Source: an uncultured Sphingopyxis sp.
Lineage (GTDB): Bacteria > Pseudomonadota > Alphaproteobacteria > Sphingomonadales > Sphingomonadaceae
Direction: 5' to 3'
Assembly (NCBI GenBank): GCA_937873425.1
Contig: CALMYE010000139.1
Location: 1-64,000, forward strand
Length of the DNA stretch: 64,000 nucleotides
The notes below the pieces were generated by a model that had not been told where the DNA came from, ran no database searches, and saw only the letters and a program-made list of their open reading frames with translations. Each line of letters begins with the position of its first letter. Position 1 is the first letter of the stretch. Made by a program: the position numbers and the translations under genes. This document shows positions 9,895 through 41,257 of the stretch, piece after piece.

Positions 9895-9960
9895 CGCGTC
9901 TTCACTCCATGGTGGCGGCGCGCTCTTCGCTTTGCCGCCTTCAACTTCGTACAGGGCGCG

Positions 9961-9991
9961 CCTATACATCCTCCAGTCACTGGAGGATCAA
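9961..9991 (-). promoter_or_regulatory. MerR-type promoter/operator for the CDF-FTR1-czc block
   Basis: On the minus strand TTGATC (9991-9986) and TATAGG (9966-9961) are separated by 19 bases, the over-long spacing typical of MerR-activated promoters. Between and overlapping them, 9968-9988 is a perfect dyad: ATCCTCCAGT, one base, then its complement. merR starts 11 bases beyond on the opposite strand. The promoter points at the CDF gene. Confidence 0.8.
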
Positions 9992-9998
9992 GCATAAT

Positions 9999-13800: not shown

Positions 13801-14006
13801 ATCGGGTAGGTGACCTGGTCCTCGACGATCCGCGGCGCTTGGCCCGCATAAGTCGTGCGGATGATGACCTGGACGTCCGACAGGTCGGGCAGGGCATCGA
13901 CCGGCGTCGTGCGTACCGCGGCGATCCCGAGCAACGTGAGGATCAGTGCCGCCGCGACGACAAGTCCGCGCGCCGCGACCGAGGCGCGAATGATCTTCGC
14001 GATCAT
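10872..14006 (-). CDS. cusA: CusA-family Cu(I)/Ag(I) RND permease
   Basis: This 1044-residue inner-membrane pump has the family opening [21 protein letters not shown] and the helix-4 motif [19 protein letters not shown], which differs from the [10 protein letters not shown] form of the three Czc pumps here and is typical of monovalent-metal pumps. The segment [18 protein letters not shown] contains the conserved Met position of the CusA metal cleft. The start ATG overlaps the cusB stop (ATGA), and the end overlaps the cusF start by 4 bases. It works with the adaptor and channel encoded upstream to expel Cu(I)/Ag(I). Confidence 0.95.
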
Positions 14007-15232
14007 TGCGCCGCCTCCAGCGGGCGGACGGTGAGGCCGGTCAGGCTCGCTTCGGAATCGAGCAGGAACTGACCCGACGCGACGACCTTCTCGCCGGGAG
14101 CGAGACCCTGCAATATCTCGGTCTTGCCGCCGCCTTCGCGTCCGGCGACCACCTCGGCGGGATGGTACCGTCCGTCGCCCTTTTCGAGCATCACGATGCT
14201 GCGCGTGCCGGTGCGGATCACCGCTTCGCTCGGCACCAGCAGCGCAGGCTTGGCGTCGCCGCCGAGCGCGACCACCGCGAACATGCCGGGGCGGAGGCGC
14301 CCGCCGCGATTGGCGAGCTCGACGCGCACCGTCAGCGTCCGGCTGTCGGCCGATGCGGTCGGCAGGATGGCGATGACCCTGCCGGTGAATGTTTCGCCGG
14401 GAAAGGCGGTGAGGGTCGCGCTCGCCCGCTGGCCGATCTTTACGAGTCCGGCTTGCGCCTCGGGAAGCGCGGCGTTGAGCCATACCGTGCCGAGCCCCGA
14501 GATTTCGGCAAGGGTCTGGCCGGCGGCGAGCGTCACACCCGCGCGCGCATTGAGCGTCTGGACAACCCCGCCGATCGGCGCGCGCACCGTCAGTCTGCCG
14601 CCGGTGCGCCCGGTCCGGTCGACCTCGGTTATCACGCCTTCGGGCATGCCCATCAGCCGCAGCCGCAGCCGCGCCGCCGCGGTGAGGTCGGGTTTGCCGA
14701 GCTTTTTGACGCTCAGATATTCGGTCTGGGCGCTGCCCCATTCGGGCAATTGCAGGTCGGCGATTGGCGTGCCGGACCCGATCACGTCGCCCGGCGCGAG
14801 ACGATAGACGCGCTCAACGAAACCGCCCGAGCGCGCCTGGACGATCGCGACGTCGCGCTGGTTGAAATCGATACTGCCGTTGACGTCGAAGGTCGCCGCG
14901 AGGCTTCCCATTTCGGCCGCGACCACCCTTATGCCGAGGCTCTGCCTTGCGGCCGGATCGACCGACACGCCCGGTGCGATGCCGCTGCCGTCGTCGGCAT
15001 ATTTGGGCTCGAGCTGCATATCCATGAAGGGCGACTTGCCGGGCTTGTCGAACTTCTGGTTCGGGAACATCGGATCATAATAATAGAGGATCTTGCGCCC
15101 GCCGCTGCCGGCCGCCTCGGTTGGCGCATCGCCCTGGCCGCTCTGTCCGAGCCAGTAACCGCCGCCGCCCGCGATCAGCACCGCGGCCAATATTCCGGCG
15201 CGCCAACGCGCCGCTGATGTTGCATCGGTCAT
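14003..15232 (-). CDS. cusB: CusB-family periplasmic adaptor with heavy-metal-binding domain
   Basis: This 409-residue membrane-fusion protein has an N-terminal anchor helix and then the heavy-metal-binding domain signature [30 protein letters not shown], whose Met residues accept copper from CusF. Lipoyl, hairpin and barrel domains follow. It is coupled by 4-base overlaps to both cusC upstream and cusA downstream. It stabilises the tripartite pump and actively passes metal to CusA. Confidence 0.93.
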
Positions 15233-16455
15233 CGACCTGCCTCCCCATAAACATAATTGATCCGGATCGCGTCGCGCGCGACCTCGGCTTCGCGCGCCAG
15301 CGCATCGACTTCGGCCTCGGCGAGCGCGAGGGTCGACAGCAGTGCGGTCCCGAGGTCGAGCTTTCCGGCGGCGTAACTTGCAAGATCGAGCTCGGCGCGC
15401 TTCTTCGCGAGCGGCACGAGCCGCGTGCGCGCATTGGCGAGCTGCTCATGATGCATGCGGTGATCGGCGAGATCGGCGTCGAGCGCCGCCGCGATGTCGC
15501 GCTTGGCCGCCTCGCGGTCGAGCCGCGCGCGCGCCGCTTCGCTGGCGCGCGCGGCAATCTTCGGGTCCTGCCGTTTCTTCGAGAAGAAGGGCAGGTCGAC
15601 GGTAACCCCGACCGTGACGAGGTCGCCAAAATTGGGTTCGCGCCGCCCATAGGCCGCATTGACGCTCCAGTCGGGGCGCTTGTCGGCGCGCGCGAGACCG
15701 GTCTCGGCATCGGCCGCGAGCGCGCGGGCGTCGAGCGCGCGTAGCCTTGGCAGGGCGTCGATCCCGGCGCGCAATCCTTGCTCGTCGATCATCTGCGGCG
15801 GCAAATCGCCGAGCGTATCGGCGGCGGGGTCGCCGGTAAAGCGGGCGAGCTGTGCGCGGGCTCGGGCGATCTCGGCGGCGAGCGCGCTGCGGCGATCGGC
15901 GATCGCGGCGCGAAGCTGGTCGGGCTCGAGCGCGTGCGCCGGGCGCGCCGCGCCGCTGGCGAGCCGCGCGGTCACCGTCGCTTGAAGGTCTTCGAGGCCG
16001 GTATCGAGCAGGTCGAGTTCCTTGAGGCGCTTCTTGGCGTAGAAGAGATCGACCCAGGCGAGCGCGGTCGCGAGCCTGATGTCCTGCGCAGTGACCGCCT
16101 CGTCGGCGCGGGCGATTCCGATATCGGCCTGCGCGCGCGTTGCGCGCGCGCGGCGCTTGGCGGGGTTCGGAAAATCCTGGCTGACGCCGATGACCTGCAT
16201 CGTGAAATCGTCGCGATTGAACCGGCCCGCATCGGGCCCGGTCACCGGGAAGTCCTGCAGGACGATATTGAGTTTCGGGTCGGGCAGCCGGTCGGCGGCG
16301 ATCGCCGCCGATTGGGCGGCGTCGATGCCGGCTTCGCGAGCTTGCAGTTCCGGCGCGCGCGTCGCTGCCAGCCCAAGCGCCGTGTCGAGCGTCATCGGCT
16401 CGGCGTGAAGGGCCGTGGGCAGCGCGAGCAAGGCTGCCGTAAAGAATAGGCGCAT
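15229..16455 (-). CDS. cusC: CusC-like outer-membrane efflux channel (TolC family)
   Basis: This 408-residue protein has a Sec signal (TALHA-EP), two OEP repeats of Ala/Arg-rich coiled coil and the segment RLPDPKLNIVLQDFPVTGPD near the first strand. It is the outer-membrane exit of the Cu/Ag pump. The ATG has a GGGGGACATC site, and its stop overlaps the cusB start. Sequence similarity to CzcC-type channels is also possible, but the context assigns it to the Cus system. Confidence 0.9.
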   Translation of the reverse strand: MRLFFTAALLALPTALHAEPMTLDTALGLAATRAPELQAREAGIDAAQSAAIAADRLPDPKLNIVLQDFPVTGPDAGRFNRDDFTMQVIGVSQDFPNPAKRRARATRAQADIGIARADEAVTAQDIRLATALAWVDLFYAKKRLKELDLLDTGLEDLQATVTARLASGAARPAHALEPDQLRAAIADRRSALAAEIARARAQLARFTGDPAADTLGDLPPQMIDEQGLRAGIDALPRLRALDARALAADAETGLARADKRPDWSVNAAYGRREPNFGDLVTVGVTVDLPFFSKKRQDPKIAARASEAARARLDREAAKRDIAAALDADLADHRMHHEQLANARTRLVPLAKKRAELDLASYAAGKLDLGTALLSTLALAEAEVDALAREAEVARDAIRINYVYGEAGR

Positions 16456-17881: not shown

Positions 17882-20209
17882 TCAGATTTTCACGAACCGC
17901 AGGCGCAGCGAATTGGCGATGACGCTGACCGAGGAAAGCGCCATCGCGGCGGCAGCAATGATCGGCGAGAGCAGCAGGCCGAAGACCGGGTAGAGCACGC
18001 CCGCCGCTACCGGAATGCCCGCGACATTATAGGCGAAGGCGAAAAAGAGATTCTGGCGGATGTTCGTCATCGTCGCATGGCTGAGGTGCCGCGCCCGCAC
18101 GATACCGAGCAGATCGCCGCGCAGCAGCGTGACCCCCGCGCTTTCGATGGCGACATCGGTTCCCGATCCCATGGCGATCCCGACATCGGCAGCGGCGAGC
18201 GCGGGGGCGTCATTGACCCCGTCGCCCGCCATAGCGACGACCCGGCCCTGCTCGCGCAGCCGCTGCACGACGGCGCTCTTCTGGTCGGGGAGGACATCGG
18301 CCTCGACGTCGGCGATACCGAGGCGCCGGGCGATCGCCTCGGCCGTCACGCGATTGTCGCCGGTGAGCATGATGACCCGGATTCCCGCATCGCGCAGCGC
18401 AGCAAGCGCTGCCCCCGTCGTCTCCTTGACGGGGTCGGCGATCGCGATGACGCCCGCGGCCGTGCCGCCCACCGCGATATAGATCGCCGTTGCCCCGTCG
18501 GCGCGAAGCCGATCGGCCGCCTCGGCAAGCGCGCCCGGATCAACGTCATACTCCTCGAGGAAACCGGCATTGCCGAGGACGACGGCTTTGTCGTCGACCA
18601 CCCCGACGATGCCCTTGCCGACCGGCTGGTCGACTCCCGACGGCTCAACGAGCGCGAGACCCCGATCTTCGGCTGCCTTGACGATCGCCGCCGCGAGCGG
18701 ATGCTCGCTGCTGCGCTCAAGGCTGGCGGCGATCCGCAGGAGGTCGGTTTCCTCAAATCCGTCAGCGACCTCGATTGCAACCACCGAGGGTCTGCCTTCG
18801 GTGAGGGTTCCGGTCTTGTCGACGACAAGTGTGTCGACCTTCTCCATCCGTTCGAGCGCTTCCGCATTCTTGATCAGCACGCCGGCTTCGGCGCCGCGCC
18901 CGACCCCGACCATGATCGACATGGGCGTTGCTAGGCCTAGCGCGCACGGGCAGGCAATAATCAGCACCGAGACCGCTGCGATCAGGCCATAGGCCATGGC
19001 GGGCACAGGGCCGAGAAGCGACCAGATGATGAATGCGATGACGGCGACGATGATGACGCCGGGTACGAACCAGCCCGAAACCGTATCGGCAAGCCGCTGG
19101 ATCGGCGCGCGGCTGCGCTGCGCATCGGCGACCATCTGAACGATACGCGCCAGCATCGTGTCGCGGCCGACTTTCTCGCTGCGCATCAGCAAGCCGCCGG
19201 TCTGGTTTATCGTGCCCCCGATGAGCGCCGCGCCGGCTTCCTTGGTCACAGGCATGGACTCGCCCGTGACCATCGACTCATCGACCGTGCCGCGGCCTTC
19301 GAGTACGACCCCGTCGACGGGAACTTTTTCGCCCGGGCGGATGCGCAGCACGTCGCCGACGGCAACCGCCTCGAGCGCGACTTCCTCGTCGCTCCCGTCG
19401 TCGCGGACGCGCCGCGCGAGCTTGGGCGTCAAGTCGAGAAGCGCGCGGATCGCTCCGCTCGTCGTCTCGCGCGCCCTCAACTCGAGCACCTGTCCGAGCA
19501 GGACCAGCACCGTGATGACCGCGGCGGCTTCGAAATAGACCGCGACCGACCCGTCGGCGGCGCGGAACGCGTCGGGGAAAATCTGCGGCGCGAGCGCCGC
19601 GATCATGCTGTAGCCCCAGGCGACGCCCGTCCCCATCGCGATGAGGGTGAACATGTTGAGGCTCTTGTTGCGGATCGAGAGCCAGGCGCGCTCGAAGAAG
19701 GGCCAGCCCGCCCACAACACGACCGGGGTCGCGAGCAGCATCTGGATCCAGTTGCTCGTCTGGCGACCGACGACCTGGTGAAGGCCGGTCAAATGGCCGC
19801 CCATCTCGAGCGCCAAAACCGGAAGGGCGAGCAGGAGCCCGACCCAGAAGCGACGCCGCATGTCGCGATATTCTGCGCTCGGACCGCTTGTCGCCTCGGG
19901 CATGAGGGGCTCGAGCGCCATGCCGCAGATCGGACAGCTTCCGGGCCCCGGACGCTGAATTTCGGGATGCATCGGACAGGTCCAGATCGCGCCCTCGACG
20001 GGTTCGGCCACGGCCGCCTCGCGTCCGGCCGTGTAGCGACCGGGGTCGGCCTCGAATTTCGCGAGGCAGTCCGCGCTACAAAAATAATGATGCGCGCCGT
20101 CATGCGTCGCGACATGCGGCGTGGTCGCGGGGTCGACCGTCATGCCGCAGACCGGATCGGTCGTGGTATCGCTGCCTTTTCCTGCGTCCTGATGATCGTG
20201 CACCGCCAT
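17882..20209 (-). CDS. Copper-translocating P1B-type ATPase with YHS and heavy-metal-binding domains
   Basis: This 775-residue Cu(I)/Ag(I) export ATPase belongs to the family variously called CopA, ActP or SilP. Instead of HMA domains, its N-terminus has a YHS domain (TDPVCGM, residues 17-23, with later paired Cys CSADC) and a heavy-metal-binding domain (WTCPMHPE at 76-83, [10 protein letters not shown] at 92-101). Eight helices and catalytic motifs follow: TGES (315-318), CPC (420-422), DKTGT (464-468), the HP loop and GDGVNDAPA. The ATG with AGGAGCG is chosen over a longer frame. It would pump copper to the periplasm, where the Cop and Cus systems take over. Confidence 0.95.
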
Positions 20210-20279: not shown

Positions 20280-20365
20280 CGGCCATCGTTGCGGCAGCAG
20301 AATGAGGCCGCTCCTATCGATACGCAAGGCAAGCCGTTGCCCCTTGGATTTTCTTCGCGGTGCCG

Positions 20366-21043
20366 TCAGGCTAGGCGCTTTCTGGCGTGCAGGATGCCGA
20401 TGGCGCCGGTGGGCGTCCGAAAATTCTCGAGTTCGCGAATGTCGTCAAAACCGGCTTCGCGCATGAGGAATGGCAGCAAGCCATCGGCGTTGGGCTGGGT
20501 ATCATGGACACCATCGAGCTGCTGGATCGTCAGGCGGAACAGCCAGCGCATCAGGCGGCTGCGCTGTTCCCCATAGTCGGCGATATAGAGCGCGCCGCCA
20601 GGGGCGAGCTTGTGCCAGGCCTCGCGCAGCAGCCGGGCCTTTTCCTCCATTCCCACCTGGTGGAGGACGAGACAGATTGCGATCGTCGACGGGGGCGGCC
20701 AGTCCGCAACCGACGGCGCCGAGAAAAAGCCGACGCGAAACTCAGGCAGCGGATCAAGCTGCGCCGTCTTGGTTCGGGCAATGCGCGTCGCGGCCTCATC
20801 GGGGTCGATGCCGAGATAGCGCACGCCGTCAGTGCGCCGGGCAATCGCCAGCGCGAGATTCCCCGTTCCCGAGCCGATATCGAGAAGGATCTCGCCCTTG
20901 GCTAGCGCCATATGGCGAACGAGACGGTCCCGCCACAGGCGTTCGCGCGTTGTGACGGCGACGCCGAAATCATAGAGCGGCGTCAGAAAATGATAGCCGG
21001 CCGCCGGCGTGTAGCTTCGGTCAGCGCCTGCGGGTTCGGGCAT
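20366..21043 (-). CDS. Class I SAM-dependent methyltransferase
   Basis: This 225-residue soluble protein has the Rossmann motif I LLDIGSGTGNLALAI (about residues 52-66), an acidic motif II (YLGIDPDEAA), and a UbiE/COQ5-like C-terminal half (LAPGGALYIADYGEQRSRL). The ATG follows GGAGGAG. Methyltransferases of this kind recur in sphingomonad copper clusters, but the substrate is unknown; small-molecule or quinone methylation is only inference. It lies between the AraC-type regulator and the copper ATPase. Confidence 0.82.
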   Translation of the reverse strand: MPEPAGADRSYTPAAGYHFLTPLYDFGVAVTTRERLWRDRLVRHMALAKGEILLDIGSGTGNLALAIARRTDGVRYLGIDPDEAATRIARTKTAQLDPLPEFRVGFFSAPSVADWPPPSTIAICLVLHQVGMEEKARLLREAWHKLAPGGALYIADYGEQRSRLMRWLFRLTIQQLDGVHDTQPNADGLLPFLMREAGFDDIRELENFRTPTGAIGILHARKRLA

Positions 21044-21173: not shown

Positions 21174-21899
21174 TCAGGGGACGATTTCGAATGCGAACGC
21201 CGCAAGGCCTGCCGAAGGCGTCACCCCGAGCCATTGCGCACAGCGGCGGGTGAAGTGCGACTGGTCGGCAAAGCCGCCCGCCGCGGCCGCGTCGGCGAGG
21301 CCGCCGCCGCCGACAAGCGCGCGCAGCGCCCGCTGGAGTTGGAGCCATTGCAACAATTTCGCCGGCGGCACGCCGAAATCCCGGCCGACGATTTCGCGCA
21401 GGCGCGAAGGCGAGAGGCGGGCGACATCGGCGAGCGCGCGGGCGGTCGACAGATCGCCGGGTTTCGCGAGCGCCGAGGACAGGCGCGAATCGAGCGGATC
21501 TCCGGACATCCGGTCGAGATAGGAGGAGGCCCAGCGCCTCGCTTCGTCACCACTGGCGATAGCGCCAAGGCAGGCCGTTTCCGCCGGTGGCAGCAGCGTG
21601 GGTTCCGATCCGGCCGACATTCGCGCACCGGCGCGAAAAAGCGGGTCGAGATAGAAAGAGCGCACCATCGCGCCCTGCGGCCCCAGACGGTGCGGAACAT
21701 GCGATGCAAACACGACCGCTTGTCCGGCCGGGACCGTCATGTCGACGTCCCCGGAAATCTCGAGATCCTGTTCGACCGCGAGGCTGATCTGATGCGCCAG
21801 ATGGCTATGGGGGCGGCTGGCCCCGATGCGGGCATCGATCAAAGCCCAGCCCGTCCCGAGCATGATCGAACCCGACCAGGGGGCGGTGCTGGCGGTCAA
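21174..21899 (-). CDS. AraC-family transcriptional regulator
   Basis: This protein of about 241 residues has an N-terminal cupin-like sensor half (ASRPHSHLAHQISLAV, FASHVPHRLGPQG) and a C-terminal pair of helix-turn-helix units (LADVARLSPSRLREIVGRDFG; LADAAAAGGFADQSHFTRRC). The start is uncertain. A TTG overlapping the copD stop (TTGA) gives tight coupling, and the next ATG lies at 21863. Sitting inside the copD-methyltransferase-ATPase run, it may regulate that run; no operator was identified. Confidence 0.85.
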   Translation of the reverse strand: MTASTAPWSGSIMLGTGWALIDARIGASRPHSHLAHQISLAVEQDLEISGDVDMTVPAGQAVVFASHVPHRLGPQGAMVRSFYLDPLFRAGARMSAGSEPTLLPPAETACLGAIASGDEARRWASSYLDRMSGDPLDSRLSSALAKPGDLSTARALADVARLSPSRLREIVGRDFGVPPAKLLQWLQLQRALRALVGGGGLADAAAAGGFADQSHFTRRCAQWLGVTPSAGLAAFAFEIVP

Positions 21900-22861
21900 G
21901 CCGCGTCGGCGCCGACAAATGGTTCGAGCGTGCCGAACCACGCGACCAGCGCGAGAATGGCGAGGGCGGCCAGCGCTTCGATGACCAAGCTCCTGCGCAT
22001 GGCCGCAAGCGCAGCGTCGGGATCGGTATCGATGTCCTCGGTGTCACCACCCGCCACCGCAGCGGCGAGCGCCGGCGTGAGGCGCCAGCGATTGGCGGCG
22101 GCGAGTGCCAGCATCAGTCCGAACAGCGCCAGCTTGGCAAGGAGCAATTGTCCATAGGGCGAGCCGAGTGACCGGCCGATATTCTCGGCGCCGATGATGA
22201 GCTGGCTGTTGATGAGCCCGGTCGCGGCAATGACGAGGACGCAGACCGTACCGACCCAGGAAAATCGATCGAGGCTGCGCGCGGCAATAGGAAGCCCGTC
22301 CGGCCAGTCGCGGATGCGCCGCGGCGAAATCAGGATTAGAAAGGCGCCGATTGCGCCAACCCAGACCGCGGCCGCGATCATATGCAATATGTCGCTGATC
22401 CGGTGGAAGTTGCCCGGGGTGCCTTCGGTGGCGCCCGCATGGCCGGACCAGACCAGGGTCGCGACGGCCACCGAGCCTGCGGCGGCAAGCAGCGCAGCAG
22501 CGGTGGTAGGCCACCGCGCCATCCAGAATGCTGCGCCCAGCGCGAGGGCAAGAGCGGCGCTACGGAAAATCCAGGCCATCCCGACATCGGTCTCGCGAAC
22601 AAGATCCCAGAAGGGCTGTAACTCCAACGACAGGATGCCTACGCCCTGCATCGAAGCCGCGAGCACGCCCATCCCCAAGGTGGAGAGAAGCAGTCCGGCG
22701 GCGCAGAACCATCGCTCCGCGCGCCAGATCGCGGCCATCGGCTGCGGCCCAACGCGCTCGCTGCGTGTCAGTGCATAAAGCGGGAACGCAGCGAGGCCGG
22801 CGATGAGCATCAGGTCCGCATAAAGTGCGAACCTGATGCCGATCAGGACGGGATCGCCCAC
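21896..22861 (-). CDS. copD: CopD/PcoD-family copper resistance membrane protein
   Basis: This 321-residue protein has about eight transmembrane helices and conserved His/Met positions in the CopD fold (WSGHAG, FHRISDILHMIAAAVWVGAIG). CopD proteins work with periplasmic CopC in copper uptake across the inner membrane, supplying copper for enzymes or sensing. It follows copC by only 4 bases and its stop overlaps the AraC-type gene. It is probably transcribed from the ECF-type promoter in front of copC. Confidence 0.92.
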   Translation of the reverse strand: MGDPVLIGIRFALYADLMLIAGLAAFPLYALTRSERVGPQPMAAIWRAERWFCAAGLLLSTLGMGVLAASMQGVGILSLELQPFWDLVRETDVGMAWIFRSAALALALGAAFWMARWPTTAAALLAAAGSVAVATLVWSGHAGATEGTPGNFHRISDILHMIAAAVWVGAIGAFLILISPRRIRDWPDGLPIAARSLDRFSWVGTVCVLVIAATGLINSQLIIGAENIGRSLGSPYGQLLLAKLALFGLMLALAAANRWRLTPALAAAVAGGDTEDIDTDPDAALAAMRRSLVIEALAALAILALVAWFGTLEPFVGADAA

Positions 22862-22865
22862 CGCC

Positions 22866-23249
22866 TTACTTTACGGTGAAGCTGAATTCACTGCCCATGC
22901 GGTGGGTGTCGGCACCCGCAGCCGACCATTTGACCTTGTAGGTTCCGGGTGCCAGCGCGCGCTTCAGCGCAAGCGTCATCGACTTGCCGTCCTTGCCCAT
23001 CGCCGAGGTATAGGGAATTTTCATCGGCGCGTGATTGGCCATGCCCGGCATCCCGGTCATGACGAATTCGGTCTTCACGGTCGAGGCGATCACCTTTTCG
23101 TTAAATTTCAGGCTCACCGACGTCACCTTCGAGACGGTCGAATTGGCCGCGGGTGTCGAACCGACGAGCTTGGTATGTGCGCTCGCTGCGGCAGGCATGA
23201 GGAGCAGCGCGAAAGCCGCTGCCGCGGAGGGGAGAAGAGATTTGAACAT
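22866..23249 (-). CDS. copC: CopC/YobA-family periplasmic copper-binding protein
   Basis: This 127-residue secreted protein has signal cleavage at ASA-HT, which leaves the N-terminal His that forms the CopC Cu(II) site. The conserved strands TKLVGSTPAANSTV and VSLKFNEKVI follow, then the Met segment (MTGMPGMANHAPMKI) and a final DTHRMGSEFSFTV carrying the other His. The second of two in-frame ATGs is used because the first contains the ribosome site (GGAGGTC). It partners CopD immediately downstream. Confidence 0.93.
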   Translation of the reverse strand: MFKSLLPSAAAAFALLLMPAAASAHTKLVGSTPAANSTVSKVTSVSLKFNEKVIASTVKTEFVMTGMPGMANHAPMKIPYTSAMGKDGKSMTLALKRALAPGTYKVKWSAAGADTHRMGSEFSFTVK

Positions 23250-23279
23250 AAAGACCTCCAAATTGTGTCTGTTCTGCTA

Positions 23280-23306
23280 ATACGCAGGGCGTTGGCGTAA
23301 CCCTCA
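23280..23306 (-). promoter_or_regulatory. ECF-type promoter A, reading toward copC-copD
   Basis: On the minus strand TGAGGG (23306-23301), 13 bases, then CTGCGTAT (23287-23280). The same two blocks with the same 13-base gap recur at 23319 and 24717 and, with one base changed, at 38398. It ends 30 bases before the copC start codon. Confidence 0.75.
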
Positions 23307-23318
23307 AACATTCTGGCG

Positions 23319-23345
23319 TGAGGGGTGAAGCGATCTGCTGCGTAT
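23319..23345 (+). promoter_or_regulatory. ECF-type promoter B, reading toward the anti-sigma/sensor/sigma genes
   Basis: TGAGGG, 13 bases, CTGCGTAT, back-to-back with promoter A. It lies 18 bases before the anti-sigma gene start, as expected for an autoregulated ECF sigma operon. Confidence 0.75.
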
Positions 23346-23363
23346 ATGCAATTACGGAAAGAC

Positions 23364-23645
23364 ATGACGAGACAGTCGATGGATGAAGAGCTTCGCATTT
23401 TGAACAGGATCGATCTGCCCGCGGCGCTCGATGCGCTGGACGATCGCATCATTGGCGCGCTCGCAGTGCGCCGCCGGGAAGCGGCCGCGACGGGACGCCT
23501 CATGGCGCTGGCAGCGTTTGTCTCGCTGGGCGGCGGCTTTGTCGCGGGCAGCGCGATCTCCCAGCCCGCGGTGGCAGCAAGCCCGCTTGCCCCCTTTGGT
23601 CCGCCAAGCGCTCTCGCACCCTCCACCTTGCTGGACACGCAGTAA
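23364..23645 (+). CDS. CnrY-like single-pass anti-sigma factor (putative)
   Basis: This 93-residue protein has a cytoplasmic N-terminal amphipathic segment (MDEELRILNRIDLPAALDALDDRI), a basic stretch, one transmembrane helix (LMALAAFVSLGGGFVAG) and a short Pro/Ser periplasmic tail. This is the build of CnrY-type anti-sigma factors, which hold the sigma factor at the membrane through the N-terminal helix. The ATG with GGAAAG is chosen. It lies 2 bases before the periplasmic sensor gene, in cnrYXH order. Family membership is inferred from architecture and context rather than strong similarity. Confidence 0.7.
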   Translation: MTRQSMDEELRILNRIDLPAALDALDDRIIGALAVRRREAAATGRLMALAAFVSLGGGFVAGSAISQPAVAASPLAPFGPPSALAPSTLLDTQ

Positions 23646-23647
23646 CG

Positions 23648-24085
23648 ATGCCGTCACGCCGTCTTCTTCTCTTGGGGCTTATCGCCTTCGCTGCTGCTAT
23701 CGCTGGCGTTTTCGCCGGCCGCATAGTGTCGGACGCGCCGAAGGCGAACGAAACCGAATTGCACGCGCTTCTTCACAACGAACTCGACCTGACCGCGGAC
23801 CAGGAAGCGAGGATCGAGCAGATCGAAGCCGATTTCGCGCGCCGCCGCACGGCGCTTGAGCTCGAGATGCGGGCTGCCAATGTCCGCCTCGCCCAGGCGA
23901 TCGAAGCCGAACATGGCTATGGGCCGCAGGTGACCAAGGCGATCGACGAGACGCACGAGGTGATGGGCGAGCTGCAAAAGGAAACGCTCCAGCATCTTTT
24001 CGCGATGCGCGCGATTCTCGATCGCGATCAGGCGCGCATGTTCGACAAGAGCGTGGTCAAGGCGCTGACCGCCGATGCACGGTGA
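23648..24085 (+). CDS. Periplasmic metal sensor, CnrX/NccX type (heavy-metal resistance family)
   Basis: This 145-residue protein has an N-terminal membrane anchor (LLLLGLIAFAAAIAGVFAG) and an all-helical periplasmic hooked-hairpin domain (LHALLHNELDLTADQEARIEQIEADFARR; HEVMGELQKETLQHLFAMRAIL). CnrX-family proteins bind metal through His/Glu/Met side chains and release the anti-sigma factor. Available ligands here include His in LHALLHNEL and HEVM. The neighbouring cop genes suggest copper rather than Ni/Co, which is inference. Its stop overlaps the sigma gene start. Confidence 0.85.
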   Translation: MPSRRLLLLGLIAFAAAIAGVFAGRIVSDAPKANETELHALLHNELDLTADQEARIEQIEADFARRRTALELEMRAANVRLAQAIEAEHGYGPQVTKAIDETHEVMGELQKETLQHLFAMRAILDRDQARMFDKSVVKALTADAR

Positions 24086-24666
24086 TTCCCGACCTATCGC
24101 AGTATAGCGACCAGGACCTGGCGGCCCTCGCTCGCGCACATCGCGACGACGCCTGCCGCGAGTTGCTGCGCCGTTACAAGACCGGCGTCTACCGGCTCAT
24201 AGTCAAGCATATCGGTGACGCCGAAGAGGCGATGGACCTGACGCAGGAAACCTTTGTTGCCGGCTTCTCGGCCCTCAATCGCTATGATGGCGATCGCCCC
24301 TTCCGCATCTGGATCGCGCGGATCGCGCTCAACAAATGTCGCGACTGGGCGCGCCGGCGGAGGGTGCGTGCCTTTTTCTCCCGGGCGCTTCCGCTCGAGA
24401 GCGCGCATCAGGTGGCAAGCGACGTCCCATCGCCCGATTCAGAGGCAACCGACAGAGGCGAGCTTGCAAGGGTCCGCGGAGCGATCGACCGGCTTCCGCA
24501 GAATTTGCGCGAGGTGTTGCTCCTTCGCGGCGTAGACGAGGTCAGCCAAGCCGAAACCGCGGTGATTTTGCAGGTCAGCGAAAAGACCGTCGAGACCCGC
24601 CTCTACCGTGCGCGGACCAAGCTCAGGGAGCTGCTCGCGGGAACGTCGGCGAGGGCGCGGGGTTGA
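24082..24666 (+). CDS. ECF RNA polymerase sigma factor (CnrH-like)
   Basis: This 194-residue protein starts at GTG overlapping the sensor stop. Region 2 is visible (ELLRRYKTGVYRLIVKHIGDAEEAMDL, TQETFVAGF, FRIWIARIALNKCRDW), and region 4 ends in a helix-turn-helix (QAETAVILQVSEKTVETRLYRARTKLREL). Release from its membrane anti-sigma under metal stress would direct RNA polymerase to the TGAGGG-13-CTGCGTAT promoters, including the one before its own operon. That target assignment is inferred from promoter recurrence around this locus. Confidence 0.92.
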   Translation: MIPDLSQYSDQDLAALARAHRDDACRELLRRYKTGVYRLIVKHIGDAEEAMDLTQETFVAGFSALNRYDGDRPFRIWIARIALNKCRDWARRRRVRAFFSRALPLESAHQVASDVPSPDSEATDRGELARVRGAIDRLPQNLREVLLLRGVDEVSQAETAVILQVSEKTVETRLYRARTKLRELLAGTSARARG

Positions 24667-24671
24667 CGTAT

Positions 24672-24689
24672 CGTCCGCTTGTTCGGACG
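24672..24689 (+). terminator. Weak terminator-like hairpin after the sigma gene
   Basis: CGTCCG, 6-base loop, CGGACG, followed within 15-30 bases by T-rich runs (CATTTTAC, CATTTTTATT). It separates the sigma operon from the copA promoter. Confidence 0.4.
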
Positions 24690-24716
24690 GCGATCCTCAT
24701 TTTACGGCATTTTTAT

Positions 24717-24743
24717 TGAGGGGCGGCCCTCTCCCCTGCGTAT
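24717..24743 (+). promoter_or_regulatory. ECF-type promoter C, reading toward copAB
   Basis: TGAGGG, 13 bases, CTGCGTAT, identical blocks and gap to promoters A and B. It ends 41 bases before the copA start codon. Confidence 0.75.
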
Positions 24744-24784: not shown

Positions 24785-26629
24785 ATGGAAAGGCGTAGGT
24801 TCGTCAGTGGAGCTTTGGGCGGGGGCGCGGCTGCAGCAATGACCGCATGGTTCCCGGCCTGGGCCCAACCGGTCTCGCAGGGCATTACGGCGCCCATTCC
24901 CACCGTGTCGGGCAACGACATCACCCTGCGCATCGCGCGGCAGACGATGCGCATCGACGGCAAGCTGAGCCGCGCCATCGGCATCAACGGCACGGTGCCG
25001 GCACCGCTGGTTCGCCTCAAGGAAGGCCAGACGGCGAAGCTCACCGTCGTCAACGACCTGGACGAGGACAGTTCGATCCACTGGCACGGCCTGATCCTGC
25101 CGTTCCAGATGGATGGCGTACCAGGCGTCAGCTTTCCGGGGATCAAGCCGCGCTCACAGTTCGTCTATGAATTCCCGGTCGTCCAGTCGGGGACCTACTG
25201 GTATCACAGTCACTCGGGTCTCCAGGAGCAGCTCGGCCACTATGGCCCGATCGTCATCGATCCTGCTGGCGCCGACCCGATCGGTTATGATCGCGAGCAT
25301 GTCGTCGTCCTGTCCGACCACAGTCAATTGTCGCCCGAGGCGATCTTCCGCAAGCTCAAGGTCAATCCCGGCCATTTCAACATGCAGCGCCAGACGCTGA
25401 GCGGTCTCCTTGCCGGTAAGGACCAGCCGCTGAAGGACCGGATCGAGTGGGGCGCGATGCGGATGGACCCGACCGACGTCGCCGACGTCAATGGTTCAAC
25501 CTACACTTTCCTCGTCAACGGCCACGGCCCGCGCGATAACTGGACCGCGCTCTTCAAGCCGGGGGAGCGCGTGCGGCTGCGTATCGTCAATGCGTCGGCG
25601 ATGACGATCTTCAACGTCCGCATCCCGGGCCTCAGGATGACCGTGGTGCAGGCCGACGGCCTCAATGTCGTGCCGACCGAGATCGACGAGTTCCAGATCG
25701 CGGTTGCCGAGACCTACGACGTCATCGTGACCCCGGTCGAGGACCGAGCTTATACGCTCGTTGCCGAGGCCAATGACCGCTCGGGCATGGGGCGCGCGAC
25801 GCTCGCACCGCGCGCCGGCATTGTCGCCGAGGTGCCGCCGCTCCGCGAGCGGCCACTCGCGACGATGAAGGACATGGGCATGGGCGACATGGATATGTCG
25901 GGCGGCTCGATGGCGGGCATGGACCATTCGGGCGGCGGCGATATGGGCGCCATGCCCATGCCGGCGAGCGATCCTTCCTGTCCCCCTGAACATGCCAAGA
26001 TGGGCCATTGCACGCCAGCGGGAGAAAGCGGCGCGATGGCGGGCATGGATCATGGATCGGGCGGAGGCATGCAGCACAGCATGCGCGACTTCAGTGTCGC
26101 GCCGCAGGTCAAGCGCGACCCGAGCGTCCAGACGATCTCGCCGATGCCGATGGATCGCATGGGCGAGCCAGGACAGGGACTTGAAGACGTCGGGCACAAG
26201 GTGCTGACCTACCACGATCTGGTGGCGCTCGAGCGCAATCCTGACGTGCGCGCCGCCTCGCGCTCGCTCGACATCCATCTGACAGGCAACATGGAACGCT
26301 TCATGTGGTCGTTCGACGGCGTGAAGATGTCCGATCATCACGAACCCATCCCCTTCATCGAGGGCGAGCGGGTGCGTGTGAACCTCATCAACGATTCGAT
26401 GATGAGCCACCCCATCCACCTGCACGGCCATTTTTTCGAGCTGGTCACGGGGAGGGGCGACCGGTCGCCGCGCAAGCATACGGTGCTGGTCCAGCCGGGC
26501 GGGACCGCGAGTTTCGACTTCACCGCCGACGCGCTCGGCGACTGGGCGTTCCATTGCCACCTTCTCTATCACATGCACGCGGGGATGATGCGCGTCGTCA
26601 GCGTCCGTCCGAAGGGAGACGGCGAATGA
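24785..26629 (+). CDS. copA: CopA/PcoA multicopper oxidase
   Basis: This 614-residue periplasmic Cu(I) oxidase is exported by Tat (signal MERRRFVSGALGGG). Three cupredoxin domains carry the trinuclear and type 1 copper motifs: HWHG (99-102), YWYHSHSG (138-145), HPIHLHGH (542-549) and HCHLLYHMHAGMM (590-602). A Met/His-rich insert (about residues 361-433) should bind extra copper and contains a CPPEHAKMGHCTP module also found in CopB. A TTG one codon upstream is ignored. The stop overlaps copB. It detoxifies periplasmic copper by oxidising Cu(I) and sequestering copper. Confidence 0.96.
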   Translation: MERRRFVSGALGGGAAAAMTAWFPAWAQPVSQGITAPIPTVSGNDITLRIARQTMRIDGKLSRAIGINGTVPAPLVRLKEGQTAKLTVVNDLDEDSSIHWHGLILPFQMDGVPGVSFPGIKPRSQFVYEFPVVQSGTYWYHSHSGLQEQLGHYGPIVIDPAGADPIGYDREHVVVLSDHSQLSPEAIFRKLKVNPGHFNMQRQTLSGLLAGKDQPLKDRIEWGAMRMDPTDVADVNGSTYTFLVNGHGPRDNWTALFKPGERVRLRIVNASAMTIFNVRIPGLRMTVVQADGLNVVPTEIDEFQIAVAETYDVIVTPVEDRAYTLVAEANDRSGMGRATLAPRAGIVAEVPPLRERPLATMKDMGMGDMDMSGGSMAGMDHSGGGDMGAMPMPASDPSCPPEHAKMGHCTPAGESGAMAGMDHGSGGGMQHSMRDFSVAPQVKRDPSVQTISPMPMDRMGEPGQGLEDVGHKVLTYHDLVALERNPDVRAASRSLDIHLTGNMERFMWSFDGVKMSDHHEPIPFIEGERVRVNLINDSMMSHPIHLHGHFFELVTGRGDRSPRKHTVLVQPGGTASFDFTADALGDWAFHCHLLYHMHAGMMRVVSVRPKGDGE

Positions 26630-27843
26630 CCCGGGTCGCGCTTCTCCTCGCGGGTATCGCCCCGCTGACATTTGCTGTGCCCGCTGCCGCGCAGTCCATG
26701 AATCATTCGATGCATGGCGCGGCGCCCGCGCCGACACCCGTTCCCTCGCCAACGCCAGCGCCAGCGCCGGTAGCGCAGCCCGCGCCCGAAGCGCCCGCCG
26801 AAGGGTCGATGGAGCAGATGGACCATGGGAACATGCAGGGCATGGACATGGAACCCGAGGCTTCAAGCTGCCCGCCCGAACATGCGGCGATGGGTCATTG
26901 TACGCCTGAGGCGGAGGCTCCAGACAAGGGCGCTTCGGACATGGGCGCGATGGATCATGGCGCACCGCAGCCGTCCGATCCCGATTGCCCGCCCGAACAT
27001 GCCAAAATGGGCCATTGCACCCCGAAGGGCGGATATGCGGACCCCGTGGCGGGAATGGAAGGCATGGCGACCACGACCAGCGCTAGCGGCACCGATTTGC
27101 CGCCGGGAGATGCTACCGCGCCTGCGCCTCCCGGCGACTGGTATGCCGATCGCATCTACCCCAAAGCCGAAATGGAGCATTCGCGCCACGACATGATGAA
27201 AGAGAATGGCGCGCAGACCATCGCTTTCATCAGCTTCAACCTTGCCGAATTTCAGGCGCGCAAGGGCCGCGACGGGTTCCGCTGGGACGGTGAGGCCTGG
27301 TACGGCGGCGACATCAACCGGCTGACGATCAAGAGCGAAGGCGAGGGCGTGTTCGGCGAAGGCATCGAAGGCGCCGAGGTACAGGCGCTGTACAGCCGGG
27401 CGATCGGACCCTATTTCAACGCGCAGGCGGGTATCAGGCAGGATCTCGGACTCGGCCCCGATCGCACCTATGCGACGATCGGTTTCGAGGGGCTCGCGCC
27501 CTATTGGTTCGAAGTCGAGGGCGCTCTGTTCCTTTCGAACAAGGGTGACCTGCTCGCCCGGCTCGAAGGCTATTACGACCAGCGCATCACGCAGAAGCTG
27601 ATCCTGCAGCCGATGGCGGAGGTCAATTTTGCGCTCCAGGATGTCCCCGAGACCGGCGTTGGCTCGGGCCTCTCCGACTTCGAGCTCGGGCTTCGCCTGC
27701 GTTACGAGGTCGTGAAGGAGTTCGCGCCTTATGTCGGCGTCGAATGGGCCGGCAAGGTCGGCGATACCGCGCGTTTCGCCCGCGCCGCTGGCGAGGATGC
27801 GAGCGGTGTCAGTTTCGTGATGGGGGTGCGGGCCTGGTTCTAG
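26626..27843 (+). CDS. copB: CopB/PcoB outer-membrane copper resistance protein
   Basis: This 405-residue protein starts at the ATGA overlap with copA. A signal peptide (AVPAAA-QS) is followed by a low-complexity Pro/Ala/Met/His half with two metal-ligand modules (CPPEHAAMGHCTP at residue 82, CPPEHAKMGHCTP at 121). The C-terminal beta-barrel of the CopB family begins near DWYADRIYPKAEMEHSRHDM and ends in the terminal aromatic (VRAWF) recognised by the outer-membrane assembly machinery. It binds or moves copper at the outer membrane together with CopA. Confidence 0.94.
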   Translation: MTRVALLLAGIAPLTFAVPAAAQSMNHSMHGAAPAPTPVPSPTPAPAPVAQPAPEAPAEGSMEQMDHGNMQGMDMEPEASSCPPEHAAMGHCTPEAEAPDKGASDMGAMDHGAPQPSDPDCPPEHAKMGHCTPKGGYADPVAGMEGMATTTSASGTDLPPGDATAPAPPGDWYADRIYPKAEMEHSRHDMMKENGAQTIAFISFNLAEFQARKGRDGFRWDGEAWYGGDINRLTIKSEGEGVFGEGIEGAEVQALYSRAIGPYFNAQAGIRQDLGLGPDRTYATIGFEGLAPYWFEVEGALFLSNKGDLLARLEGYYDQRITQKLILQPMAEVNFALQDVPETGVGSGLSDFELGLRLRYEVVKEFAPYVGVEWAGKVGDTARFARAAGEDASGVSFVMGVRAWF

Positions 27844-27881: not shown

Positions 27882-28325
27882 GTGAAACCAGCCTATCGCA
27901 GCCTCGCGCTGCAGACAATCATCAGCGGCGTCATCATGTATCTGGTGATGTTCGTCATGATCGACCGCCTCTCGAGCTTCTACAATAATCTCAACATGCT
28001 CTACATGACGCTGATGATGGTTTCGCCGATGGTCGTACTGATGATCGTCGCGATGCCTGACATGTTCCCGTCGAAACGCCTTAACACGCTCCTGCTGCTG
28101 GGATCGGCAGTCGCCTTCTTCGGAAGCTTCGCGCTGATTCGGACTCAGACGACCATCGGCGACACGGCCTTCTTGCGTTCGATGATCCCGCATCATTCGG
28201 GCGCGATCCTCATGTGCGAACAGGCTTCCCTCAGGGATGCCGAAATACGCGAACTTTGCCGCGGCATCATCGCAGGGCAGGCGGCCGAAATCGAACAGAT
28301 GAAATCCATTCTCGCGAGGAAATGA
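27882..28325 (+). CDS. DUF305-type membrane protein of the cop operon
   Basis: This 147-residue protein starts at GTG after GAGGAG. Three predicted membrane helices (SGVIMYLVMFVMI; LMMVSPMVVLMIVAM; LLLLGSAVAFFGSFAL) are followed by a DUF305-like helical end with the hallmark MIPHHSGAILMCEQA and the helix EIEQMKSIL. DUF305 proteins are frequent in copper clusters and probably bind metal through the His pair. No reaction is known. It lies 38 bases after copB and 1 base before the DUF411 gene. Confidence 0.85.
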   Translation: MKPAYRSLALQTIISGVIMYLVMFVMIDRLSSFYNNLNMLYMTLMMVSPMVVLMIVAMPDMFPSKRLNTLLLLGSAVAFFGSFALIRTQTTIGDTAFLRSMIPHHSGAILMCEQASLRDAEIRELCRGIIAGQAAEIEQMKSILARK

Positions 28326-28326
28326 C

Positions 28327-28851
28327 ATGAAAAGTCCGATGACGCGCCGTCACCTTCTCGGTCTGATTGCCGTCGGCTCGGGGATGGGGCTTGCGGCATG
28401 CAATTCTTCCCCGGGACCGGCGGCAACCAGCGACAAAGACGGCGGGGCTCGCGAGCCTCGCGCCGATGCGGCGAACATCCGGCAGATGCTCGTCTATCGC
28501 GATCCCGAATGCGGATGCTGTGAAGCCTGGGCGGATATTGCGCGCGCGGCGGGCTATGCGGTGACCGTTGAGAACCGTTCCGACATGCCTGCCGTAAAGG
28601 CGCGATATGGTGTGCCCGACGAGCTAGCTTCGTGTCACACCGCGATCGTCGGTGGCTATGCCATCGAAGGCCATGTGCCGATGCCACATGTCGCGAAGCT
28701 GCTTCGCGACAAGCCGCGCGACATTCGCGGGATCGCCGTGCCTGGCATGCCGCGCGGATCTCCGGGCATGGAAATGCCGGATGGAAGAACCGACGCCTTC
28801 GAAGTGATGGCGTTCGCTGGCGACGGCAAGGTTGCGCAATTTCGCGCATGA
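28327..28851 (+). CDS. DUF411 (CopG-like) periplasmic metal-binding protein
   Basis: This 174-residue protein has a Tat/lipoprotein-like N-terminus (MTRRHLLGLIAV, lipobox LAAC) and a DUF411 domain with the thioredoxin-like Cys cluster YRDPECGCCEAW. A second conserved part follows (ELASCHTAIVGGYAIEGHVP), with a Met-rich loop (GMPRGSPGMEMPDG). DUF411/CopG proteins bind copper and are thought to cycle it redox-wise in the periplasm. The order copA-copB-DUF305-DUF411 is a single coherent operon. Confidence 0.9.
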   Translation: MKSPMTRRHLLGLIAVGSGMGLAACNSSPGPAATSDKDGGAREPRADAANIRQMLVYRDPECGCCEAWADIARAAGYAVTVENRSDMPAVKARYGVPDELASCHTAIVGGYAIEGHVPMPHVAKLLRDKPRDIRGIAVPGMPRGSPGMEMPDGRTDAFEVMAFAGDGKVAQFRA

Positions 28852-38397: not shown

Positions 38398-38424
38398 TGA
38401 GGGGTAGAGCTTTGGGGTGCGTAT
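38398..38424 (+). promoter_or_regulatory. ECF-type promoter D, reading toward the second TonB receptor
   Basis: TGAGGG, 13 bases, GTGCGTAT. It differs from the three promoters at the cop locus by one base in the second block and has exactly the same gap. It lies 127 bases before the receptor start codon. Confidence 0.6.
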
Positions 38425-38551: not shown

Positions 38552-41257
38552 ATGATGACCAGGACAATTTTGCTCGCGAGCGCCGCAGCGGTCGCCACCT
38601 TTGCAACGCCAGCGCTCGCGCAGAGCGATGCAGCGACGCAGTCACCCGCTGCGGAGGATGCTCCGAACGGATCGGACATCGTCGTGACCGGCTCGCGCAT
38701 TCGTCGCCAGGACCTCGCGGGCGTGGGGCCTGCGACGGTGGTATCCGCCGAACAGATAGAAAATACCGGTGTCGTCAATATCGAGACGGTGCTGCAGCGC
38801 CTGCCGGCCAACGCCGGTTTCGCGGGCAACCAGACCTCGGCCTATTGGGCGAACAATGGCTATGGGACGGCGCAGGTGAACCTGCGCGGCCTCGGTATCA
38901 AGCGCACCCTTGTGCTGCTCAACGGCCGCCGTCTCGTCGCGGGTGGCACCGGGGCGAACTCGTCGCCCGACCTCAACATGATCCCGGTCGCCGCACTCGC
39001 GCGCACCGATGTGCTGAAGGACGGCGCCTCGGCGATCTATGGCGCCGATGCGATGGCGGGTGTCGTCAACCTTGTAACGCGCACCGACTATGAAGGCCTC
39101 GGCCTCAGCGTCCGGCAGGGGATCACCGAAAAGGGCGATGGGTCGGATTTCACCGCCGATCTCCTCTGGGGTATCCGCAACGACCGTGGCGGCTTCATGG
39201 CAGCCGTCACCTACCAGAAGACGAAGGCCGTCAACATGGCCTCGCGAGCGCCCTGTTCGCTCGCGGAAACGACGCCGGGATCGCTGAGCTGCGTCAACAG
39301 CGCTTCGACCATCGGTGGGCGTGCGGTGCTGCCCAACGGTCAGCAGATCAACTTCAACCAGGTGCCGGGCGGCAACGGCAATTTCTTCGAGCCGTACAGC
39401 GCTGCGAAGCACAACTTCAACTCGAACCCGTTCCTGAACGCGGTCAGCCCGGTCGAGCGTGTCAGCACGGCCTTCTTCGCCGATTATGACCTGACCGACA
39501 ATATCGAGACGTTTGGCGAGTTCCTCTACACCTTCCGCAAATCGAACCAGATCGCGACGCCGGGAACGCTGCGCAACCTGTCGATCGCGGCGAGCAATCC
39601 GACCAACCCGACCGGACAGAATATCGTCCTCATCCAGCGCCGCCTCGCCGAGCCCGGCCCGCGTCAGTTCTTCCAGGAAACCGATACCTGGCAGGGCACC
39701 TTCGGCCTCCGCGGCAAGCTGTCGAACAATTGGGGATGGGAAGTCGCGGGCGCGTTCGGGCGTAACACCGCGGTCGATGGTTCGACCAACATCGCCAACC
39801 TCGAGCGCGTCGGCAACACGCTCGATACGACCAAGTGCAGCCTCGCGGCGGGGGCTTCGATTCCCTGCGCCGACTATCTGGGGTTCGGCGACCTGACGCC
39901 CGAAGTTCTCGACTATATCCTGTTCACCTCGCGCGATCGTGGCGGTAACGAACTGGCGACGGTCACGGCAGACATCAACGGCGACCTGTTCAAGCTGCCC
40001 GCAGGGCCCGTCTCCTTCGCGGCGGGCGTCGTCTATCGCAAGGAGAAGGGCTGGCGCGATCCCGATCCGCTGACCGTGCTCGGCATCGCCAACACCAACC
40101 AGCAAAGCCCGATTTCGGGAACGAGCATCGCCAAGGAAGCCTATCTCGAACTGTCGGTGCCGATCCTCGCCGACAAGCCCTTCTTCCAGTCGCTTACGCT
40201 CGATGGTGCGGTTCGCTACTCGAACTACGACCTGTTCGGCAGCGACTGGAACTACAAGGGTAGCGTTGACTGGGTCATCAATGACAGCTTCCGCCTGCGC
40301 GGGACCTACGGCACCGGTTTCCGCATTCCGAACGTCCCCGAACTGTTCGGGGGTGTGTCGGAGGGCAATCTGACGACGACCGATCCTTGCTCGCGCTACG
40401 CGACCAGCGGCAATGCGACGCTGATCGCGAACTGCCAGGCATCGGGCGTGCCCGCCAACTATGTCCAGCTCGGCACCACGATCCTCACCACGGTGGGCGG
40501 GAACGAGAATCTCCAGCCCGAAAGCTCGACCACCTGGACGGTCGGCACCGTGATCTCGCCGAAGGGGCTGGTCCCCGGCCTGTCGCTCACCGCCGACTGG
40601 TTCGATATCAAGATCAAGGACGCGATCCGCGCGATTCCGGGGTCCACGAAGCTGTCGATCTGCTACGCGAGTACGAACCTGTCGCATCCCTTCTGCGATG
40701 ATTTCACGCGCAGCCCGCTGACCGGCGAAGTGACATTCCTCTCCGCGCAGCCGATCAACACCGGCCGCGAGGAAATGAACGGGCTCGATCTCGGTCTCGT
40801 TTACGCGGGTGGCATCGGCAGTGTGAACATCTCGCTCGACGTCAATCTCACCTATCTCAATAAATATGTCGTCCTGCCCTTCCCGGGCGGCGCGCCGATC
40901 GATTTCGACGGCTTCATCGGCGGCGGCAACGGCGGCTATTCGAAGTGGCGCGGCTATGGCGTACTGACCGCCGAGAAGGACGGCATCAGCGCGACCTGGT
41001 CGACCCAGTGGATCGGCAAGGCGACCGACTTCAATGCGTCGCCCGGCGAAATCGGTTATCGCACGCCGAACGTCTTCTATCATAATCTCCAGCTCGCCTT
41101 TGAGATCGACGAGAAGACCCGCTTCCAATTCGGGGTCGACAACCTCTTCGATCGCAAGGCGCCGTACATCCAGAGCTTCACCGATGCGAACACCGACACG
41201 ATGACCTACGACCTGCTCGGCCGGCGCTTCTATGTCGGCTTCCGCACCGCCTTCTGA
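38552..41257 (+). CDS. TonB-dependent outer-membrane receptor (second)
   Basis: This 901-residue receptor has a signal peptide (TPALA-QS), a TonB-box region (SDIVVTGSRIRRQDL), a plug (VNLRGLGIKRTLVLLNGRRLV; VLKDGASAIYGADAMAGVVNL) and a barrel ending in VGFRTAF. Four cysteines in the barrel loops (APCSLAETTPGSLSC and others) could form disulfides. The ATG has an AGGGGG site. It is followed 11 bases later by two PepSY membrane proteins, a pairing usual for siderophore or metallophore uptake, where PepSY proteins act as inner-membrane reductases. The ligand is unknown. Confidence 0.93.
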   Translation: MMTRTILLASAAAVATFATPALAQSDAATQSPAAEDAPNGSDIVVTGSRIRRQDLAGVGPATVVSAEQIENTGVVNIETVLQRLPANAGFAGNQTSAYWANNGYGTAQVNLRGLGIKRTLVLLNGRRLVAGGTGANSSPDLNMIPVAALARTDVLKDGASAIYGADAMAGVVNLVTRTDYEGLGLSVRQGITEKGDGSDFTADLLWGIRNDRGGFMAAVTYQKTKAVNMASRAPCSLAETTPGSLSCVNSASTIGGRAVLPNGQQINFNQVPGGNGNFFEPYSAAKHNFNSNPFLNAVSPVERVSTAFFADYDLTDNIETFGEFLYTFRKSNQIATPGTLRNLSIAASNPTNPTGQNIVLIQRRLAEPGPRQFFQETDTWQGTFGLRGKLSNNWGWEVAGAFGRNTAVDGSTNIANLERVGNTLDTTKCSLAAGASIPCADYLGFGDLTPEVLDYILFTSRDRGGNELATVTADINGDLFKLPAGPVSFAAGVVYRKEKGWRDPDPLTVLGIANTNQQSPISGTSIAKEAYLELSVPILADKPFFQSLTLDGAVRYSNYDLFGSDWNYKGSVDWVINDSFRLRGTYGTGFRIPNVPELFGGVSEGNLTTTDPCSRYATSGNATLIANCQASGVPANYVQLGTTILTTVGGNENLQPESSTTWTVGTVISPKGLVPGLSLTADWFDIKIKDAIRAIPGSTKLSICYASTNLSHPFCDDFTRSPLTGEVTFLSAQPINTGREEMNGLDLGLVYAGGIGSVNISLDVNLTYLNKYVVLPFPGGAPIDFDGFIGGGNGGYSKWRGYGVLTAEKDGISATWSTQWIGKATDFNASPGEIGYRTPNVFYHNLQLAFEIDEKTRFQFGVDNLFDRKAPYIQSFTDANTDTMTYDLLGRRFYVGFRTAF

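Follow-up and report, generated by a model that had tools for sequence, protein, structure and literature searches.

A 64,000-nucleotide stretch of an uncultured Sphingopyxis sp. (contig CALMYE010000139.1 of assembly GCA_937873425.1, hereafter the window) carries copper resistance genes around a three-gene operon, Y-X-H. Y is a small protein and a predicted anti-sigma factor. X and H are homologues of the metal sensor CnrX and of the extracytoplasmic function (ECF) sigma factor CnrH, as a first-pass annotation of the window had proposed. We found four perfect copies of a two-block motif, which lie before Y-X-H, copC, copA, and a gene for a TonB-dependent receptor. Judged by their sequence, the sites very probably make up one ECF regulon. 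We favor, with a probability of about 0.78, a reading in which H reads these sites, metal-bound X frees H from Y, and the cop genes, Y-X-H, the TonB receptor, and probably a copper P-type ATPase are induced together by what is likely periplasmic copper.

The probable promoter motif and its link to H

The first-pass annotation had listed three sites of the form TGAGGG-N13-CTGCGTAT, upstream of copC, Y-X-H, and copA. All three are present base for base. A genome-wide scan found exactly three matches in the assembly (4.34 Mb, 337 contigs, 92% complete), all at those places; by our own arithmetic, an exact 14-base pattern is expected about 0.03 times by chance on both strands. At a tolerance of up to three mismatches, the window shows no enrichment: it has 7 hits, the mean of shuffled sequences is 4.6, and 20 of 100 shuffles score as high. 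It is therefore the exact matches and the conservation that carry the signal.

For conservation, we used the loci of the best 80 of 342 relatives of H, which are Sphingomonadales by name or metagenome-assembled genomes matching beside them. TGAGGG and GCGTAT stand at a 15-base gap 210 times in these loci and never at gaps of 8 to 14 or 16 to 22, and three scrambled control patterns have no match there. The base preceding GCGTAT is T in 127 of the 210 sites, C in 82, and G in one, so that it is a pyrimidine (Y) in 209. The other spacer bases vary. The block CTGCGTAT had been described as identical at all three sites, which holds for the window but not for the relatives, where its C is free and its T may be T or C. 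The core refined from the related loci is TGAGGG-N14-YGCGTAT.

This core also corrects the earlier total of three sites. The assembly has four perfect core sites in its 4.34 Mb, each upstream of genes in one 15-kb stretch, and the one before the TonB receptor gene had been missed. One-mismatch matches lie at C184:19760 and on contigs C26, C61, and C181. We set the match at C184:19760 aside as a target, because by eye it is inside a ligase-like reading frame.

The fixed spacing extends to variant sites and to distant relatives. The CRAGGG form gave 52 pairs at gap 15 and 2 over twelve other gaps between 9 and 21. To look beyond near-copies, we also collected 26 divergent loci, of which 8 are plasmid loci (Sphingomonas, Sphingobium, Novosphingobium, Caulobacter, and Asticcacaulis) and 18 were found with a profile of X. 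Here, [N]GAGGG and GCGTA formed 63 pairs at gap 15 and 6 at gap 16, against 4 over the remaining thirteen gaps between 8 and 22. Composition shuffles averaged 0.75 pairs at gap 15 and 1.6 at gap 16.

The presence of sites follows the presence of H. In a panel of 60 genomes (the assembly and 59 relatives), with a close H defined by an E value below 1e-70, perfect core sites occurred in 29 of 29 genomes with H and in 2 of 31 without it (Fisher P = 4e-15, uncorrected for kinship). The reversed pattern, used as a control, had 2 sites across all 60 genomes. The exceptions are G009 and G036, and in G009 a divergent H homologue with 38% identity lies 0.8 kb downstream of the site on the same strand.

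The two blocks also resemble mapped promoters. In Cupriavidus metallidurans, mapping put the CnrH-dependent transcription starts 24 bases upstream of cnrY and 25 bases upstream of cnrC, according to the part of the source covered (PMC9045368, which cites Grass 2000). Placed on the plasmid sequence, both starts are 8 bases past CGTAT in CRAGGG-N17-CGTAT. The window sites have the same -35/-10 pair as these two CnrH promoters, and their spacer is shorter by one base. From this analogy, we predict transcription starts at 23272 (copC), 23353 (Y), 24751 (copA), and 38432 (TonB receptor). The proposal that the repeats are promoters of a single ECF sigma factor thus holds up on three counts: their spacing is fixed, their presence tracks the sigma gene, and their element pair matches that of mapped CnrH promoters.

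Some divergent loci have gap 16, the equivalent of the CnrH spacer (L160 at about 5792-5821, L163 at 4627, and L156 at 6072), and L163 has both gaps. Sites in L148 and L150 start with GGAGGG or AGAGGG.

Predicted targets and proposed mechanism

The features are collected in Table 1, in which conservation is counted with a relaxed site, [TC][GA]AGGG with GCGTA. The site before Y-X-H predicts autoregulation. The regulon drawn in the first pass, with the copA and copC gene groups under the sites, was too small, as it missed the TonB receptor site and a degenerate site before the copper ATPase gene.

Table 1. Predicted promoter sites and genes of the window
Feature	Position	Strand	Evidence
copC-copD promoter site, TGAGGG-N13-CTGCGTAT	23280..23306	-	exact; relaxed site before copC in 69/80 loci
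Y-X-H promoter site	23319..23345	+	exact; relaxed site before Y in 77/80 loci and 23/26 divergent loci
copA-copB-DUF305-DUF411 promoter site	24717..24743	+	exact; relaxed site before copA in 73/80 loci and 22/24 divergent loci tested
Fourth perfect core site, upstream of TonB-dependent receptor	38398..38424	+	127 bases before gene
Degenerate site CAAGGG-N14-TGCGTAT, upstream of copper P-type ATPase	20320..20346	-	candidate weaker promoter
Y, small protein, predicted anti-sigma factor	23364..23645	+	open reading frame; conserved in relatives; one likely membrane helix (by eye)
X, membrane-anchored periplasmic metal sensor, CnrX homologue	23648..24085	+	PF13801 (heavy-metal resistance), 63.7 bits (cut-off 29.2)
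H, ECF sigma factor, CnrH homologue, 4-base overlap with X	24082..24666	+	Sigma70 r2 and r4
copA, periplasmic multicopper oxidase	24785..26629	+	TIGR01480, 808 bits, above cut-off
copB, outer-membrane copper resistance protein	26626..27843	+	PF05275, 4.4e-88
DUF305 protein	27882..28325	+	PF03713, 3.3e-12
DUF411 protein	28327..28851	+	PF04214, 3.4e-25
copC	22866..23252	-	NF033814, 97.2 bits (cut-off 95)
copD	21896..22861	-	NF033808, 282.7 bits, above cut-off
TonB-dependent receptor, fourth predicted target	38552..41257	+	PF00593 and PF07715
Two PepSY_TM proteins, downstream of receptor	41269-41973, 41970-42704	+	PF03929
Copper-type P1B ATPase, YHS and HMBD domains, candidate fifth target	17882..20209	-	TIGR01511, 592.8 bits, above cut-off

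A homologous TonB receptor gene has a site 126 to 128 bases ahead of it in 16 of the 80 related loci. The regulon would then take in the TonB receptor and perhaps the PepSY genes, which we infer to be cotranscribed with it. In one related locus (L061), a TonB receptor gene has a site where no cop gene is in reach. The copper ATPase probably belongs to the regulon as well: a [TC][GA]AGGG site precedes a P-type ATPase gene in 30 of the 80 loci, in 25 of them in the CRAGGG form. The ATPase site of relatives reads CAAGGG, CGAGGG, or TGAGGG, and these variants may set promoter strength. The rule for the sites is strict enough that sequence searches could predict regulons, and the TonB receptor has already been added in this way.

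A relaxed site precedes a methyltransferase gene in 2 of the 80 loci (L080 and L085). In both, it is a perfect site at position 5200 on the minus strand, before a UbiE-like methyltransferase gene whose homologue in the window is at 20366-21043. Thirteen relaxed sites, in 12 of the 80 loci, fall outside the named target genes.

H has CnrH as its best match in the PDB (4cxf, 1.3e-30; the next match is at 1e-20) and is 41% identical to it, and X is the only PF13801 match in the assembly. Y had no significant match in Pfam, NCBIfam, or the PDB, and no conclusion on membership was based on absences from the fold search. The start of Y at 23379 is likelier than that at 23364, because L026 has a stop codon between the two start codons.

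We infer the following mechanism. Y would act as the anti-sigma factor and keep H bound at the inner membrane. Anchored next to Y, X would bind periplasmic copper, the presumed inducing signal, and loosen Y, so that X releases Y and H. The freed H would then recognize the sites before its own operon and the cop genes, and further before the TonB receptor gene and probably the copper ATPase gene. CopA would oxidize Cu(I), and CopB, CopC, and CopD would handle periplasmic copper.

Copper or another signal

We found relatives of copA, copB, copC, or copD in 76 of the 80 related loci and in all 26 divergent loci. The first-pass annotation had described a CnrYXH-type system repurposed for copper. 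That description agrees with the homology of X and H and with the copper genes that follow the sites. However, Y has no detectable similarity to CnrY, and the system forms a separate sister branch.

The trees that we built of X and of H each had 51 rows, drawn from 20 of the 80 related loci, all 26 divergent loci, the window, and 4 systems beside cnrCBA-type genes. The 47 copper-branch systems and the 4 nickel/cobalt-linked systems were split across one branch in both (support of 100/100 for X and 100/97 for H; trees unrooted). Of the copper rows, 44 of 47 show cop genes within the stretch fetched, and L058, L061, and L067 were placed by kinship. The tree split and Y, together with a sensor signature of its own, indicate a sister branch rather than a recent local change. 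Conjugative plasmids in Sphingomonas, Caulobacter, and Asticcacaulis also carry copper-branch systems. Our verdict is that CnrYXH-like systems have a widespread copper branch, to which this one belongs.

The signature consists of H103 and M106. Both are present in 47 of 47 copper-branch sensors, whereas all four sensors beside cnrCBA have Glu and Ala. The same contrast appeared in proteins taken without their gene context. Near relatives of X had His103 in 118 of 120 (one Gln and one Leu) and Met106 in 120 of 120; one protein search had listed 120 of 1750 proteins. The CnrX relatives had Glu/Ala in 63 of 63, after a length filter had dropped two short proteins from 65. One genome (G756) has both sorts, with two His/Met sensors beside copAB and one Glu/Ala sensor beside cnrCBA (L163, L164, and L167). 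Three other sequences lie outside the divergent set besides L167, which with L166 is nickel/cobalt-linked: L151 is a weak match from which no X was extracted, and L168, at a contig end and with an odd gene order, has a His/Met sensor.

In a model, H103 and M106 share a long helix with H116 and M120, about three turns apart. We suggest that they may help set the choice of metal, and one hypothesis is that they form a copper site. M74 and H89 were rejected as a copper signature, being specific in close relatives and variable in divergent copper sensors. A larger proposal, which we advance tentatively and at less than even odds, is that in sphingomonads and other alphaproteobacteria the copper branch of CnrX/CnrH controls periplasmic copper resistance instead of CopRS/CusRS. 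Its sensor would choose copper through a second His-Met site, made up of H103 and M106 together with E71 or M74 from the helix opposite, and nickel/cobalt CnrX would have lost this site or never had it.

X retains all five metal ligands of CnrX, which we take to be H42, H46, E63, H119, and M123. In X they are H39, H43, E60, H116, and M120, conserved in 80 of 80 rows (79 loci and the window; L013 has neither X nor Y). Since these five ligands are common to both branches, a comparison of the two is a natural experiment in metal choice by one periplasmic fold. The sensors of L148 and L150 have Asp for the first ligand His (H39), and one divergent copper sensor has Ile in place of M120.

The shared ligands would also fit a different signal. 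The sites may be H promoters while X senses nickel, cobalt, zinc, or general envelope damage, and the copper genes would then be induced within a wider response. Structure titles list CnrX crystal forms with Zn, Ni, Co, and Cu. A TonB receptor suits a broader response, and some stretches carry resistance-nodulation-division (RND) genes. Against this stand the near-constant company of cop genes, the different residues of the four cnrCBA-linked sensors at 103 and 106, and the full separation of the two sorts in both trees. We therefore regard a signal other than copper as rather unlikely.

Several observations weigh against the copper reading of H and its regulon. Because the five nickel/cobalt-binding ligands of CnrX are kept, the sensor site by itself does not point to copper. 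In a regulon for detoxification, a TonB receptor is unexpected company. No copA, copB, copC, or copD relative was found in the fetched stretch of about 12.5 kb for four of the 80 loci (L058, L060, L061, and L067), which hold Y-X-H systems of the copper branch. CnrA-related RND genes occur in 5 of the 80 and 5 of the 26 stretches, where they are weak or partial matches and mostly at the edges. The Cus-type RND genes of the window (10872-16455, minus strand) have no site within two mismatches, and they may therefore be under other control. The CnrY model NF033790 finds both CnrY controls but not the Y of the window, and hhalign gave a probability of 0.2% for Y and CnrY, with a CnrY profile of only two sequences. 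Finally, the conservation counts come from related genomes with many near-copies that are not independent, and the loci were picked by similarity to H or X.

A further point on the same side is that another copper regulator may act besides H, as the assembly has CueR-like and CopR-like genes that score under their family cut-offs. The first-pass annotation had seen neither a copper two-component system nor CueR near these genes, which is roughly right. A MerR-family gene at 10014-10421, 13 kb away, scores below the CueR cut-off (110.6 versus 147.4 bits). It is divergent from a gene for a cation diffusion facilitator-like transporter (by eye), the pair spanning 9241-10421, and its best models are CueR and CadR-PbrR, both below cut-off. 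In the whole assembly, no CueR (best 116.4 versus 147.4 bits) and no CopR (best 229.8 versus 279.2 bits) exceeded its family cut-off. These negatives are weak evidence, because the cut-offs are strict (each was passed in 1 of 14 control genomes), MerR and OmpR relatives score under them, and the assembly may lack 8% of the genome. In some divergent loci, cueR adjoins the ATPase gene, so cytoplasmic copper sensing coexists with the system there.

Alternatively, the repeat could be bound by a DNA-binding regulator and not serve as an H promoter. A gene of the AraC family (21174-21941) follows copD and overlaps its end, and the MerR-family gene is also in the window. However, homologues of the AraC-family gene are found in 27 of 69 full-length related loci and those of the MerR-family gene in 16 of 69, which is too sparse for sites that precede Y as regularly as these do, so we rejected ownership by either. 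In addition, both blocks match the mapped CnrH promoters, and they are asymmetric, whereas dyads are usual for sites of AraC- and MerR-type regulators. We consider such a regulator site very improbable. Chance or functionless low-complexity repeats, which the lack of enrichment at three mismatches might suggest, are ruled out in practice by the spacing controls in the related and divergent loci and by the co-occurrence with H.

Comparison with known systems

The closest known systems are CnrYXH and NccYXH of Cupriavidus. The window system resembles them in the Y-X-H order with overlapping or touching genes (Y ends at 23645), in the fold and five ligands of X, in a site before its own operon, and in the (Y)RAGGG and CGTAT elements of its predicted promoters, whose spacer to CGTAT has 16 bases versus 17. 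It differs from them in its targets, which are copABCD-type genes and not the nickel/cobalt RND efflux genes cnrCBA. Its sensor has H103 and M106 where CnrX has Glu and Ala, and it forms a branch of its own in both trees.

CopRS and CusRS are two-component systems that control similar target genes (copABCD) in response to a periplasmic copper signal. They use a histidine kinase and a response regulator, whereas the window system uses an ECF sigma factor.

CorE and CorE2 of Myxococcus, which respond to copper or to cadmium and zinc, are similar in that an ECF sigma factor drives genes for a multicopper oxidase and a copper ATPase. In the parts of the sources covered, CorE detects metal through a Cys-rich extension at its own C terminus, which sets it apart from sigma factors under anti-sigma control (PMC10141476, PMC8999054). 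H, with 194 amino acids and the C-terminal end LRELLAGTSARARG, has no such extension, and we rejected it as CorE-like. CorE is the only copper ECF sigma factor named in the covered part of an overview of copper signaling (PMC10141476).

SigAb-AabA-AabB of Acinetobacter is a copper-responsive ECF system with a small membrane anti-sigma partner that has been likened to CnrY and with a periplasmic partner. As far as the covered part of its description goes, the sigma gene comes first, the promoter is GTCAAC/CGTT, and the direct regulon consists of sigAb, relA, and a small RNA, with copper genes affected only indirectly (PMC12153292). By these descriptions, gene order, promoter, and regulon set SigAb apart from H. 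SigF-NrsF of Caulobacter crescentus likewise includes an alphaproteobacterial ECF sigma factor needed for copper tolerance, which is also induced by chromate and cadmium. Its targets differ from those of H, and the covered part of the report names no CnrX-like sensor (PMC8224329).

Among the results listed, our literature search found no description of a CnrX-linked copper regulon, and a 2019 review of metal-related ECF factors and a 2021 ECF reclassification may mention one. In the sources covered, the known copper ECF systems, CorE, SigAb, and SigF, use other sensors or promoters, whereas here a CnrX-like branch sits on copper gene clusters.

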